Assembly: GCF_029265375.1 (NCBI RefSeq)
Contig: NZ_JAJUJJ010000023.1
Span: forward strand, 1 to 42,547
DNA from: Nesterenkonia sp.
Lineage (GTDB): Bacteria > Actinomycetota > Actinomycetes > Actinomycetales > Micrococcaceae
Direction: 5' to 3'
Length of the DNA stretch: 42,547 nucleotides
In this document: positions 36,340 to 42,547 of the stretch, in pieces
How positions within the stretch are numbered: position 1 is the stretch's first letter
Layout of the letters: each line of letters opens with the position of its first letter
Made by a program: the position numbers and the translations under genes
The notes under the pieces: generated by a model
What the model was told of the DNA's origin: nothing
Seen by the model: the letters and a program-made list of their open reading frames with translations, nothing else
The model's database searches: none

Positions 36340-38262
36340 TCATGCATCGGGATCACCTCCCAGCGGGTCTTCGGTGACGATCGGGCGGCGGGGACTGGAC
36401 TCCCACACTTCGCGGCGCGGCCGCTTGCGGACCTGCGCGAAGATCTCGGCGACCTCTTTGGCGCCGAGGGTTTCGCGGCGCAGCAGCTCCTCGGCCAGGG
36501 TGTCGAGGATGTCCCGGTTCTCCGTCAGCGCCCAGTAGGCCTCGTCGTGGGCCTCTTCGATGATGGCGCGGACCTCCTGGTCCACCACGGCGGCCAGCTG
36601 TTCGGAGTACTCCTTGCCGGTGGCCATCTCCTTGCCGAGGAAGGGGTTGGTGTCCCCGGAGCCGAGCTTGACCGAGCCGACCTTGGCGCTCATCCCGTAT
36701 TCGGTGACCATCTTGCGGGCGGTGTCGGTGGCCTTCTGGATGTCATTGGCCGCACCGGTGGAGGGGTCGTGGAAGACGATCTCCTCGGCGACCCGGCCGC
36801 CCATGGCGTAGGCGATCTGGTCCAGCAGCTCATTGCGGGTGGTGGAGTACTTGTCATCCTCGGGCACCACCATGGTGTAGCCCAGGGCCCGGCCGCGCGG
36901 CAGGATGGTGATCTTGGTGACCGGCGCGGAGTAGTTCAGCGCAGCGGCCACCAGCGCGTGGCCTCCCTCGTGGTATGCGGTGACCCGGCGCTCGTGGTCC
37001 TTCATCAGCCGGGTGCGCTTCTGCGGGCCGGCCATCACCCGGTCGATGGCCTCGTCCACCGCTCGGTCGTCGATCAGGTCCGCATTGGAGCGGGCGGTCA
37101 GCAGAGCGGCCTCGTTGAGGACGTTGGCCAGATCCGCGCCGGTGAATCCGGGGGTCTTGCGGGCGATCTGTTCGACGTCGAGGTCATCGACCATCGGCTT
37201 GCCCTTGGAGTGGACCTCTAGGATCGCCTTGCGGCCGGCGAAGTCGGGCGCCTCCACCGGGATCTGGCGGTCGAACCGGCCGGGCCGCAGCAGGGCGGGG
37301 TCCAGAACGTCCGGCCGGTTGGTGGCGGCGATGACGATGATGTTGGAGTTCGGGTCGAAGCCGTCCATCTCCACCAGCAGCTGGTTCAGGGTCTGCTCGC
37401 GCTCGTCGTTTCCGCCGCCGACGCCGGCTCCGCGCTGCCGGCCCACGGCGTCGATCTCATCGACGAAGATGATGGCCGGGGCGTTCTCCTTGGCCTGCTT
37501 GAACAGGTCGCGGACCCGGGAGGCGCCCACGCCCACGAACATCTCCACGAAGTCGGAGCCGGAGATGGAGTAGAAGGAGCCGCCGGCCTCCCCGGCCACG
37601 GCCTTGGCCAGCAGGGTTTTGCCGGTGCCGGGCGGGCCGTAGAGCAGCACGCCCTTGGGGATCTTGGCACCCAGTCGCTGGAACTTCTGCGGCTCAGCCA
37701 GGAATTCACGGATCTCCTGGAGCTCCTCGACCGCCTCATCGGCGCCGGCCACATCGGCGAAGGTGACCTGCGGCATGTCCTTGTCGAACATCTTGGCCTT
37801 GGACTTGCCGAACTGCATCACCCGGGATCCGCCCCCGGACATGCGGGTGATCAGCCAGATGAACAGGATGGCGATCAGCAGGAACGGGATCATGAACCCG
37901 AGCATGCTCAGGAACCAGTTGGACTGCTCGGGCTCGTCGGTGTAGCCCTCCAGGTCGGCCTGGGCGATGGTCTCGGCCACGGTCTCTGCCCGGGCTTGGG
38001 AGAAGTGGAAGTGCACCGCGCCTTCGAGGGTGCGGCCGTCCAGTTCGAAGGGCTCCTCCAGGGTCAGGTCCACCCGGGAGTCGCCGTCGTCGATCCTGGC
38101 TTCGGTGACCTCGCCCTGCTCGATCAGCTCCATGCCGATATTGGTGTCCACGCGCTGGCCAGTGCCGGAGGAGGTCAGCAGCAGGGGAACCACAATGACC
38201 AGACCCAGCAGCACCAGCAGGATCCAGAACAGCGGTCCGGAGATGATCTTCTTGAAGTTCAT
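36340..38262 (-). CDS. ftsH: ATP-dependent zinc metalloprotease FtsH
   Basis: 640 residues. A first membrane segment (10-31), an extracytoplasmic domain and a second segment (118-140) lead to the AAA domain. Walker A is GPPGTGKT (209-216), Walker B IIFVDEID (264-271) and the second region of homology [18 protein letters not shown]. The protease motif HEGGH is at 431-435, with the later zinc aspartate in ATDTARKM. It degrades membrane and unstable proteins. GGAG lies 5 bases before the ATG. It heads the folate operon. The CRISPR array stands 222 bp upstream, where hpt and tilS are commonly found. Confidence 0.97.
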
Positions 38263-38484: not shown

Positions 38485-41269
38485 GTTGAGAATCTCCCCC
38501 TCCACTCCTCGATAGACTGGGGGTGCCGGACGGGTCGCCTAGCGGAGAGTTGAGAATCTCCCCCTCCACTCCTCGATAGACTGGCCGGGGCTGCCGGGGT
38601 GAATATCGAGAAGTTGAGAATCTCCCCCTCCACTCCTCGATAGACTGGGCGCCGGTGTAGTCCACGTCCAGCGGGCGTTGAGAATCTCCCCCTCCACTCC
38701 TCGATAGACTGGTGGTGCGCTCCCCGGTCAGGTCTCCACCGTTGAGAATCTCCCCCTCCACTCCTCGATAGACTGGGTCATGGCCGGCAAGCACGGCAAC
38801 GGTGGTTGAGAATCTCCCCCTCCACTCCTCGATAGACTGGAGACGTTTGAGAAGCCCGGCCGGAAGACGTTGAGAATCTCCCCCTCCACTCCTCGATAGA
38901 CTGGGCGATTCTTCACGCTTGCCGGCTGCCAGGTTGAGAATCTCCCCCTCCACTCCTCGATAGACTGGCCGCCGCCTGGGATGCGCTGAAAAGCATGTTG
39001 AGAATCTCCCCCTCCACTCCTCGATAGACTGGAGGCCGCGCACGTTGGATGCCAGCCCGTGTTGAGAATCTCCCCCTCCACTCCTCGATAGACTGGCGTG
39101 GTCTACCTCTGGATAGTGAACGAGGTTGAGAATCTCCCCCTCCACTCCTCGATAGACTGGCGAAGCTGCGCGCCCACATCGGAGACATGTTGAGAATCTC
39201 CCCCTCCACTCCTCGATAGACTGGCCGGGTGGCTCTACCGCTACTGGACGTAGTTGAGAATCTCCCCCTCCACTCCTCGATAGACTGGCATGAGCAGACC
39301 TGGTACGGGGCACTTCGTTGAGAATCTCCCCCTCCACTCCTCGATAGACTGGTCAGCTTCGGCCAGCAGGCGACCGTCGGGTTGAGAATCTCCCCCTCCA
39401 CTCCTCGATAGACTGGCAGATGTGGTATTCGAGTTCGTCGATGTGTTGAGAATCTCCCCCTCCACTCCTCGATAGACTGGCCGGCCAGTTTGTCTACCCG
39501 GTGGTGGTGTTGAGAATCTCCCCCTCCACTCCTCGATAGACTGGATGAGGCCGGACTCACGGCAGAAATTGCGTTGAGAATCTCCCCCTCCACTCCTCGA
39601 TAGACTGGTGAAGGCCGCGAACACCCTTGCCGAGGCGTTGAGAATCTCCCCCTCCACTCCTCGATAGACTGGCATGGTGGACGACCTTGCACTCCAGCTT
39701 GTTGAGAATCTCCCCCTCCACTCCTCGATAGACTGGAGGAGACCGCCCAGAAGGCCCTGGACGGGTTGAGAATCTCCCCCTCCACTCCTCGATAGACTGG
39801 AAGGGCTGGGCGTTGACGCAAACTCCATGTTGAGAATCTCCCCCTCCACTCCTCGATAGACTGGCGGGCTACCAGGTTGACCGCTCCACTTGGTTGAGAA
39901 TCTCCCCCTCCACTCCTCGATAGACTGGCCCAGGGCGCATCCGGCAAGGAGGCCCCGTTGAGAATCTCCCCCTCCACTCCTCGATAGACTGGCGGCGCTG
40001 GTGGGGCTGGGCAACAACTTGTTGAGAATCTCCCCCTCCACTCCTCGATAGACTGGCTGATGTGGTCGCGCAGTTCGTGCATGTGTTGAGAATCTCCCCC
40101 TCCACTCCTCGATAGACTGGCCGGCTGGGGCCTAGCCCTGTCAAAGAGGTTGAGAATCTCCCCCTCCACTCCTCGATAGACTGGAAAAACGAGGAGGGAG
40201 ACAGCCCATGCAGTTGAGAATCTCCCCCTCCACTCCTCGATAGACTGGGCGACAAGCCGCGACCGAAGGTCAAGCGGTTGAGAATCTCCCCCTCCACTCC
40301 TCGATAGACTGGAGGCAATGGGAGCTGTCATCAAGCACCTGTTGAGAATCTCCCCCTCCACTCCTCGATAGACTGGGTAGTGCCACAGGCCCCCCCGGCC
40401 GGGTTGAGAATCTCCCCCTCCACTCCTCGATAGACTGGCGATCACCCAGAAGCCCGAGGCGCAGAGGTTGAGAATCTCCCCCTCCACTCCTCGATAGACT
40501 GGGCAGCCTCGACGAGGTCAACGACATCATGTTGAGAATCTCCCCCTCCACTCCTCGATAGACTGGTCACGTCCCCGCGGAAGTCGGTCATGCCGTTGAG
40601 AATCTCCCCCTCCACTCCTCGATAGACTGGATATCCAGACCACACAGATCTATGTGGGGTTGAGAATCTCCCCCTCCACTCCTCGATAGACTGGAGGTGC
40701 CCGCCGACCGACCGGAGACGTTGTTGAGAATCTCCCCCTCCACTCCTCGATAGACTGGTGCATGTCTGCCTCGGACATCGCGTCGTGTTGAGAATCTCCC
40801 CCTCCACTCCTCGATAGACTGGTCTCGGTGAACTCCGAGACATCATCCACGTTGAGAATCTCCCCCTCCACTCCTCGATAGACTGGAAGCCCACAGTAGA
40901 GACCCTCCAGGACTGTTGAGAATCTCCCCCTCCACTCCTCGATAGACTGGATGGCGAACGCTGCGCCCAGCTGTTCAGTTGAGAATCTCCCCCTCCACTC
41001 CTCGATAGACTGGTTGGCGGTCTGAGCCTCATAAAGCTCAGGTTGAGAATCTCCCCCTCCACTCCTCGATAGACTGGAGGAAGCAGAGCAGGAGCCCGGC
41101 CACACGTTGAGAATCTCCCCCTCCACTCCTCGATAGACTGGCCCTCCGGCCATGAGACCTGGCCCTGACGTTGAGAATCTCCCCCTCCACTCCTCGATAG
41201 ACTGGTGAGCGTCTTCTTTCTCTACAAAGTGAAGTTGAGAATCTCCCCCTCCACTCCTCGATAGACTGG
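38485..41269 (+). CRISPR. CRISPR array, 44 repeats, type II (Cas9/tracrRNA-dependent)
   Basis: 44 copies of a 36-bp repeat that begins GTTGAGAATCTCC and ends CTCGATAGACTGG. All copies appear identical, including the first and last. They are separated by 43 unique spacers: 41 are 28 nt, spacer 30 (40377-40402) is 26 nt and spacer 39 (40951-40977) is 27 nt. The regular period is 64 bp. Spacer 30 contains a run of seven C, so its short length could be a base-count error. Crossing bases on either side of the repeat are not conserved, so 36 is the true length. The plus strand must be the crRNA strand because the tracrRNA downstream (41397-41540) pairs with the plus-strand repeat. No degenerate repeat marks the old end. 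No cas gene is in the window. Confidence 0.98.
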
Positions 41270-41295
41270 GGTATAGGGCAAAATAGCCTAGTCAG

Positions 41296-41337
41296 AGGCC
41301 ATTTCTCAGCACTTTTTGGTAGTGAGAAACGGCCTCC
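41296..41337 (+). terminator. Hairpin just after the array (likely pre-crRNA 3' end)
   Basis: Arms of 18 bases match at 15 positions around a TTTTTG loop: GAGGCC-A-TTTCTCA pairs with TGAGAAA-C-GGCCTC. It is 26 bp beyond the last repeat and 24 bp before the tracrRNA promoter. There is no downstream U run, so termination is inferred from position and stability. Confidence 0.5.
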
Positions 41338-41361
41338 ACTGGGTTTTGGCAGGCGCCGACG

Positions 41362-41390
41362 GTGACACTTGAGGTCAAAACTGCTAAGGT
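41362..41390 (+). promoter_or_regulatory. tracrRNA promoter
   Basis: GTGACA (41362-41367, one mismatch to TTGACA), exactly 17 bp, then TAAGGT (41385-41390, matching TAnnnT). The predicted start is near 41397, two bases before the anti-repeat. Independent agreement between promoter and RNA structure makes this a good call. Confidence 0.7.
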
Positions 41391-41396
41391 TGCATC

Positions 41397-41540
41397 AACT
41401 ATCGAGGAGAATCTGGGGAGATTCTTAATAAGGGTGAACTTCGGTTCCCTGACTTCTCCGCCCTACCGGGTTGCACCGGTTGGGCCATATAACTAGACAT
41501 ATGAAGCTCCGGACATTTTCCGGGGCTTCATATGTCTATC
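41397..41540 (+). ncRNA. tracrRNA of a type II CRISPR-Cas system
   Basis: The anti-repeat is at 41399-41429. Its 3' part (GGGGAGATTCTTAAT, 41415-41429) pairs with repeat bases 1-15, including two G-U pairs. Bases 41410-41414 face repeat bases 16-20 as a 5x5 internal loop. CTATCGAGGAG (41399-41409) pairs with repeat bases 21-31. The order, lower stem next to the nexus and bulge then upper stem, is that of Cas9 guide RNAs. After AATAAGG comes a nexus-like hairpin with a UUCG loop (41431-41450). Next is a hairpin GCCC-U-ACCGG/CCGGU-U-GGGC (41460-41485), then a very long final stem (41494-41538). The AATAAGG next to the duplex resembles the AAUAAGG of S. pyogenes tracrRNA. Expression is inferred. 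Confidence 0.88.
41494..41538. terminator. 20-bp near-perfect stem at the tracrRNA 3' end
   Basis: TAGACATATGAAGCTCCGGA, loop CATTT, then the complementary arm, with one G-U pair and no other mismatch. It contains the restriction-like palindrome CATATG in each arm. No T run follows. It could end the tracrRNA, or be a symmetric element that also stops transcription arriving from the transposase side. Confidence 0.6.
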
Positions 41541-41603
41541 CGGACTTTACCCACTCTCCGCAGGGTGTAGACACCGTAGGACGCCCATTCTGGGTAAGCG
41601 GCA

Positions 41604-41700
41604 AGAATGTGTGTACAGCCCGGGCGTGTCATCCCCGGCCTGCCCAACCTTTCCTGGCCCAGAGCCCGTCCTCTGCGGCGATGCCGGTGCCGTAGGTCTC
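41604..41700 (-). pseudogene. Remnant of a second IS1249-like transposase (3' end only)
   Basis: On the minus strand the frame ending at the TGA (41631-41629) reads ETYGTGIAAEDGLWARKGWAGRG. The intact neighbour ends RSYGTAATAEEGLWARTGWAGRP. The 26 bp beyond each stop, AATGTGTGTACAGCCCGGGC plus GTGTCA, are identical in both (41606-41631 and 41715-41740). A stop codon interrupts the frame upstream of ETYG, so only about 24 codons remain. It is the decayed end of a related element lying beside the present one. Confidence 0.75.
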
Positions 41701-41714
41701 GGGTTATAGGAACA

Positions 41715-42547
41715 AATGTGTGTACAGCCCGGGCGTGTCAGGGGCGTCCTGCCCAGCCTGTTCGGGCCCAGAGTCCTTCCTCGGCAGTAGCAGCAGTCCC
41801 GTAGCTGCGCGGACCGAGAGGTTCCTCCGGTTCGGTTATGTGTTGGGCTGCCTGAGTAGCTGCCCGGCGGTGCCGCTGTACCAGTTCCCAAGGGTCATGT
41901 GGGTGCTCGGTGAGGTTGTTGAGCAGCCAGTCCACGGCTTTGCGTGCGTGATGGTCGGGCATGCCTCGGTGGTGGCGCAGCAGGTGTTTGATCGCGCTGT
42001 TGGGCCCGCCTTCTAGCCTGGAGGTGGCCCGTTCCACCGTCCTGACGCCTTCGCTGGTGTAGTGCTGGTCGAGGAATGTGAACAGGGACTTATCCCGGAT
42101 CAGCTGCCGGTAGAGTCCCTGGACTCGGCGCAGCCGGATGTGGGTGTACCACCAGTTCTGGTTCGGCTTAGCCCAGGATGGCCGTTCCACGCCTTTCTTG
42201 GCGTAGGTGCGCTGCTTGAGGAACCTTTCCCACTTCGCTTCCCAGGAGCCGTAGGCGCCCATCCATGCTGCGGCGGCATCGAGGTCCTGGACCCGCATGA
42301 GCTCCCTGGTCAGAGCCAGGATCTCCTTACCTGCCTCCAGTCGTGGATTCAGGGTGGTGTGCCTCACCACGGCGGCGCGGATGTGGAAGTAGCAGCGTTG
42401 GACCCTGGTGCGGCGCCACTGCTGATCCAGAGCCGCCCGCAGCCCGGCCCCGCCGTCGGTGACCACCACATCCGGGGCGGGGAGCTGGCGGAACAGTGCT
42501 GCCCAGGCGGCTTTGGACTCGCGGTCGCACCACTGCCAGCCGATCAC
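41715..42547 (-). mobile_element. IS1249-like insertion sequence, left end and transposase (partial)
   Basis: The element's end is placed near 41714, where the sequence shared with the neighbouring remnant begins (AATGTGTGTACAG). I cannot verify its inverted repeat because the other end is outside the window. No target duplication can be scored. Confidence 0.6.
41738..42547 (-). CDS. IS1249-like (IS256-group) transposase, 5' part beyond window
   Basis: 269 residues are visible and the frame is still open at the right edge. VVVTDGGAGLRAALDQQW carries a catalytic aspartate, followed by VQRCYFHI, and the later SRLEGGPNSAIKHLLRHHRGM carries the glutamate. These are the mutator/IS256-type DDE motifs, and the overall sequence resembles IS1249 of corynebacteria. 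The C-terminal end is intact. The element sits between the tracrRNA and whatever lies to the right, where cas genes would be expected. Codon use and GC content look similar to the host. Confidence 0.85.
   Translation of the reverse strand: MIGWQWCDRESKAAWAALFRQLPAPDVVVTDGGAGLRAALDQQWRRTRVQRCYFHIRAAVVRHTTLNPRLEAGKEILALTRELMRVQDLDAAAAWMGAYGSWEAKWERFLKQRTYAKKGVERPSWAKPNQNWWYTHIRLRRVQGLYRQLIRDKSLFTFLDQHYTSEGVRTVERATSRLEGGPNSAIKHLLRHHRGMPDHHARKAVDWLLNNLTEHPHDPWELVQRHRRAATQAAQHITEPEEPLGPRSYGTAATAEEGLWARTGWAGRP

Follow-up and report, generated by a model that had tools for sequence, protein, structure and literature searches.

The segment at positions 41397-41540 of the window, by which we mean the whole stretch of 42,547 nucleotides that was analysed, is almost certainly the tracrRNA gene of a Nesterenkonia species with a complete CRISPR-Cas9 system of type II-C. 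This assignment is built on genes, anti-repeat, promoter motif, fold, conservation and co-occurrence, all of them read directly in the DNA, and they suggest a course for transcription, processing, loading and cutting. The tracrRNA would pair with every repeat of the plus-strand pre-crRNA, RNase III (a gene for which is present in the source genome) would trim the tracrRNA:repeat duplex, the hairpin scaffold would load the dual RNA into the Cas9 of 1117 residues encoded on another contig, C17, and the loaded Cas9 would cut matching phage or plasmid DNA. The system adds an uncharacterised set of Cas9, tracrRNA and repeat from Nesterenkonia, a genus in which many species are halophilic or alkaliphilic. 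Moreover, it illustrates that sequence by itself can suffice to recognise a tracrRNA correctly, even when the cas genes lie on another contig. The features of the locus are collected in Table 1.

Table 1. Features of the array, the tracrRNA gene and their surroundings, in window coordinates.
Feature	Position	Strand	Remarks
ftsH	36340..38262	-	Chromosomal gene next to the array, on the side away from the tracrRNA
CRISPR array	38485..41269	+	36-nt repeat in 44 identical copies, separated by 43 different spacers
Hairpin between array and tracrRNA	41295..41336	+	Fold of 41290-41340, -23.7 kcal/mol (energy given without shuffle control); no U-run
-35 element GTGACA	41362..41367	+	TGACA kept in N. 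alkaliphila
Extended -10 TGCTAAGGT	41382..41390	+	Fits TGnTAnnnT; -10 TAAGGT at 41385-41390
Anti-repeat	41399..41429	+	11 bp (41399-41409) and 15 bp (41415-41429) flanking a 5x5 internal loop
Stem-loop 1 (nexus), UUCG loop	41432..41450	+	Forms if the anti-repeat is omitted from the fold
Single-stranded linker, 9 nt, between stem-loops 1 and 2	41451..41459	+	Unchanged in N. alkaliphila
Stem-loop 2	41460..41485	+	Two compensatory base-pair changes in N. alkaliphila
Stem-loop 3, 20-bp hairpin	41494..41538	+	Three compensatory base-pair changes in N. alkaliphila
IS1249-like transposase, partial	41738..42547	-	265 bits, family cut-off of 300 not reached; contig of the window ends within it

The crRNA sense of the array is that of the plus strand, and 129 nt separate its end from the tracrRNA element. 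Nearly all of its spacers have the same length (28 nt in 41 cases, with single spacers of 26 and 27 nt). The 3' end of the repeat carries TAGACT, in agreement with a -10 position that is conserved among 45 distinct repeats from relatives. In these relatives the repeat ends in a motif like TGnTAnnnT, with T26 in 39, G27 in 41, and T29, A30 and T34 in 43 each of the 45 repeats; the Nesterenkonia repeat has CG in place of TG ahead of TAGACT. A start about 7 nt past this element would yield guides of 24 nt. The hairpin between the array and the tracrRNA lies in a flank that is partly conserved in Nesterenkonia alkaliphila, and it is possibly an end signal for the array transcript or a piece of the flank at the acquisition, or integration, end.

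Complementary to the CRISPR repeat and situated outside the array, the anti-repeat was confirmed by folding it together with the repeat: nucleotides 1-15 and 21-31 of the repeat pair with its 15-bp and 11-bp arms, respectively, at -44.2 kcal/mol, which is exactly the geometry of the original prediction. Of 500 dinucleotide-shuffled repeats, one attained the ungapped pairing score of 51.6 when both strands of the whole window minus the array were searched, and none of 500 did so when the search was confined to the 475 nt next to the array. The promoter that had been claimed on the plus strand is likewise present, with 17 nt between its -35 and -10 elements, and the tracrRNA is predicted to start near 41397. 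A search of both strands of the window for TGnTAnnnT returned a single occurrence, the one in this promoter.

Repeat and anti-repeat also pair nearly as well on the minus strand (score 50.8, -42.8 kcal/mol), and the plus-strand transcript loses stem-loop 1 when it is folded alone. If the RNA were read from the minus strand, there would be no plus-strand tracrRNA and the direction of the array would be reversed. We think this very improbable, since the extended -10 precedes the anti-repeat on the plus strand in all four tracrRNAs examined (two from Nesterenkonia and two from Rothia) and the conserved hairpins come next on that same strand.

Behind the anti-repeat, the plus-strand reading is sustained by the fold of 41429-41540 as three hairpins, with -59.2 kcal/mol, a z-score of -8.3 and none of 200 shuffled sequences equally stable. 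Judged by motif and fold, promoter upstream and hairpins with terminator downstream all lie on one strand, and stem-loop 3, which has no U-run, is the probable terminator of the tracrRNA. A nexus followed by two stem-loops had been proposed, and three hairpins are indeed found at 41432-41538, but the nexus is lost if the anti-repeat is folded unpaired: in the fold of 41397-41540 the anti-repeat then pairs with downstream bases and displaces stem-loop 1, while hairpins 2 and 3 remain. Therefore, stem-loop 1 should form only after crRNA binding. Compensatory changes between the two sequences available, that of the window and that of N. alkaliphila, affect five base pairs, all in hairpins 2 and 3; stem-loop 1 is absent from the consensus of these two sequences and is not covered by the covariation. 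A consensus of four sequences that includes Rothia retains stem-loop 2 but just a part of everything else. A search of the region against known covariance models had been proposed as a check; no Rfam family matches at its gathering threshold, and the three matches returned are unrelated and due to chance (E 2-5). To our knowledge, tracrRNAs are too diverse for a single covariance model, so a match in Rfam is not defining. Past the tracrRNA, two adjoining copies of 104 nt that are 74% alike were observed at 41592-41695 and 41701-41804.

A Cas9-type system had been claimed with no cas gene in view, and the genes were found in the same genome (2.72 Mb in 58 contigs, the window being the end of contig C58). 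The genes cas9, cas1 and cas2 are consecutive at C17:105365-109919, with intact reading frames. The Cas9 matches TIGR01865 at C17:106178-108022 with 156 bits against a cut-off of 100, and Pfam Cas9_a, HNH, RuvC_III and Cas9_C all exceed their cut-offs; thus, it is a Cas9 with both RuvC and HNH domains, as in type II systems, and its His599 in the HNH domain aligns with His582 of AnaCas9. The repeat might instead belong to a Cas cluster of type I or III, which would make the likeness to a tracrRNA accidental, but we give this reading hardly any credence: a genome-wide search found a single cas1, which adjoins cas9 and is matched best by type II Cas1 models, and the same repeat stands beside cas1-cas2 in N. 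alkaliphila, which carries this Cas9 too.

For the type II system, the layout of the locus can be proposed across the contig gap. Of a type II-C operon, which comprises cas9, cas1 and cas2 but neither csn2 nor cas4, contig C17 shows the three genes and then ends, 341 nt past cas2. At the end of the window stands the partial IS1249-like transposase, of which a 91% copy lies on contig C54. We infer that contigs C17 and C58 adjoin, and the partial transposase suggests that the assembly broke in IS sequence. Since hpt precedes cas9 on C17, ftsH borders the array and the two genes lie within about 1.5 kb of each other in 14 of the 27 Nesterenkonia loci checked, the locus is probably placed between them, in the order hpt>cas9>cas1>cas2> (IS) <tracrRNA<array, ftsH>. 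In the other 13 loci, which include the source genome and a few cut by contig ends, ftsH was not seen near hpt. In this order, the tracrRNA has cas2 on one side and the array on the other and is read from the strand opposite to the cas genes, an arrangement that in the source genome extends across the gap.

With the transposase behind the tracrRNA and both contigs ending in that interval, it might be argued that a transposition event between cas2 and the tracrRNA has severed the array and tracrRNA from cas9 and left them as an inactive remnant. However, all 44 repeats are identical, the frames of cas9, cas1 and cas2 are intact, RNA and protein are able to act in trans, and none of the 43 spacers is found among the 23 of the N. 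alkaliphila array, from which it follows that both arrays have been altered since the two lineages diverged. In our opinion, a remnant is therefore unlikely.

N. alkaliphila F10 (NZ_WRPM01000007) provides the closest comparison. Its repeat is identical to that of the window, the anti-repeat and the linker are unchanged, and the tracrRNA beside its array is 84% identical (131 nt matched) and folds into the same three hairpins, with a z-score of -4.5. The 3' part of cas1, cas2, the tracrRNA and the array are on one contig and show the same cas2>/<tracrRNA<array layout, although, unlike in the source genome, there is no IS between cas2 and tracrRNA, which are 78 nt apart. A separate contig carries cas9 along with the 5' part of cas1, the break falling inside cas1. 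The split cas1 lies at two contig ends (L044:1-70 and L068:1-70) whose flanking sequence does not continue the gene; it looks interrupted by an insertion, and spacer acquisition may have been lost there. A group II intron was considered as the source of this break, but Rfam gave no match.

The Cas9 of N. alkaliphila F10 is 75% identical (833/1117) to that of the source genome, with an identity of 81.5% over residues 1-870 as against 50.2% over the last 247 residues (871-1117) and 42% over residues 1003-1117. It is conceivable, though rather doubtful, that the guides of this pair are interchangeable, because repeat and anti-repeat are identical, while the PAMs would differ because the C-terminal part has been replaced or has evolved fast; in the same proposal, the tracrRNA, placed at the acquisition end of the array rather than ahead of cas9, would share its upstream region with the spacer-integration flank. 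Neisseria Cas9s are a similar case of shared guide parts with a diverged end. A relative with the same repeat and anti-repeat and a differing presumed PAM-reading part offers a pair for tests of PAM change at a fixed guide.

Comparison with phages and plasmids gave one credible spacer, spacer 33 (window 40567-40594), with 25-26 of 28 nt matched in seven virus loci, namely four named phages of Mycobacterium and Gordonia and three unannotated viral contigs. The target in each of the named phages is a methyltransferase by annotation in at least one record. Spacers 20, 23 and 26 have imperfect matches (25, 24 and 26 of 28 nt, respectively) within Nesterenkonia genomes. That of spacer 20 (window 39737-39764) is at G153:C2:35447-35475, in a frame that by eye resembles a DnaB-like helicase, and the 48-kb contig holding it may be a phage. 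That of spacer 26 (window 40121-40148) is in its own genome at C26:25880-25907, by eye directly behind a small glutaredoxin-like reading frame, with the mismatches near the 3' (PAM) side. The 3' flanks of the imperfect protospacers of spacers 20, 23, 26 and 33 share no motif beyond conserved codons, and no PAM could be derived from them. When viral contigs were scanned with parts of spacers 26, 43 and 12, no match emerged, and the remaining phage matches, 13 records for the N. alkaliphila array and 6 plasmid records were judged to be chance.

A covariance model made from the two Nesterenkonia tracrRNAs matches only those two among 30 genomes of the genus, and full-length Cas9 is found in the same two. 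At the family level, 311 of 395 genomes show some match; in 5 it spans nearly the whole Cas9, and the others among the matches listed are short stretches near the HNH domain. At the order level, 21 of 396 genomes match at E up to 1e-60. Applied to 85 sources, the RNA model recovered no Rothia tracrRNA, its only match outside the genus being a weak one in Dermabacter (E 0.09), at the anti-repeat before cas9.

In the available text of PMC12080349, PMC12638026 and PMC3936727, type II-C systems are described as having an array that opposes the cas operon, promoters within the repeats and new spacers joining the 3' end. That the array is transcribed against the cas operon can be seen directly in N. 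alkaliphila, relative to cas1-cas2, and in Rothia, relative to cas9; in the source genome it is deduced across the contig gap. No decay was seen among the 44 repeats, so polarity has no direct mark in the window; acquisition at the 3' end nevertheless fits, as the array points toward the tracrRNA. A wider survey of contigs found no relative with a single Cas9 protein as query, and 112 with an alignment as query. Arrays were called in 65 of the 80 relatives kept, and 60 could be oriented by repeat sequence after dropping five short or irregular calls. Among these named actinobacterial loci, 55 arrays are antisense to cas9 and 5 share its direction, which agrees, as does N. alkaliphila, with the direction originally deduced from the tracrRNA strand. 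In those 55, end repeats decay only at the cas-distal side in 20, only at the cas-proximal side in 3, at both in 2 and at neither in 30. The place of the tracrRNA, which is reported to vary among systems in the available text of PMC7606464 and PMC3936727, was scored in 61 loci: it precedes cas9 in 15, which is the clearest position, lies between cas2 and the array in 6 and beyond the array in 13, and is undecided in 27. At least two of the 6 and several of the 13 are repeats.

The original prediction also raised an undescribed actinobacterial Cas9. Our search of the open-access literature turned up no publication on a Cas9 from Nesterenkonia or Rothia, and neither genus is named in the available main text of the Cas9 catalogue PMC7606464; nonetheless, to judge from its sequence, the system is a new ortholog in the well-described type II-C group of AnaCas9 and AceCas9 and no new kind. 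The nearest solved structures are AnaCas9 (4ogc, E 2.5e-159, the best) and AceCas9 (8d2k, E 2.8e-154). The repeat of Actinomyces naeslundii, the source of AnaCas9, differs from that of Nesterenkonia, and the best anti-repeat of its locus L161 (-33.3 kcal/mol) lies beyond the array and not between cas2 and the array. In the type II-C loci of Rothia (R. aerolata L194/L046 and G214 L045), cas9, tracrRNA and array follow in this order on one contig, the latter two on the strand opposite to cas9; as in Nesterenkonia, the tracrRNA sits between cas9 and the array. Their Cas9s are about 42-44% identical to that of the source genome, their repeat sequence differs, and their tracrRNAs have the anti-repeat and only two hairpins, whereas those of Nesterenkonia have three; that of L045 ends in a U-run. 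By fold, the linker between stem-loops 1 and 2 has 9 nt in G214 L045, as in Nesterenkonia, and 7 nt in R. aerolata L046. AceCas9, from Acidothermus cellulolyticus, is homologous to the source-genome Cas9 over nearly its full length. Its PAM is NNNCC, with only imperfect protospacers to compare in Nesterenkonia. As given in the available text of PMC7733487, its guide consists of the repeat:anti-repeat, stem-loop 1, a connecting loop 2 of 9 nt (in sgRNA94) and stem-loop 2; both Nesterenkonia guides have a linker of this same length between stem-loops 1 and 2, and carry the third hairpin in addition.
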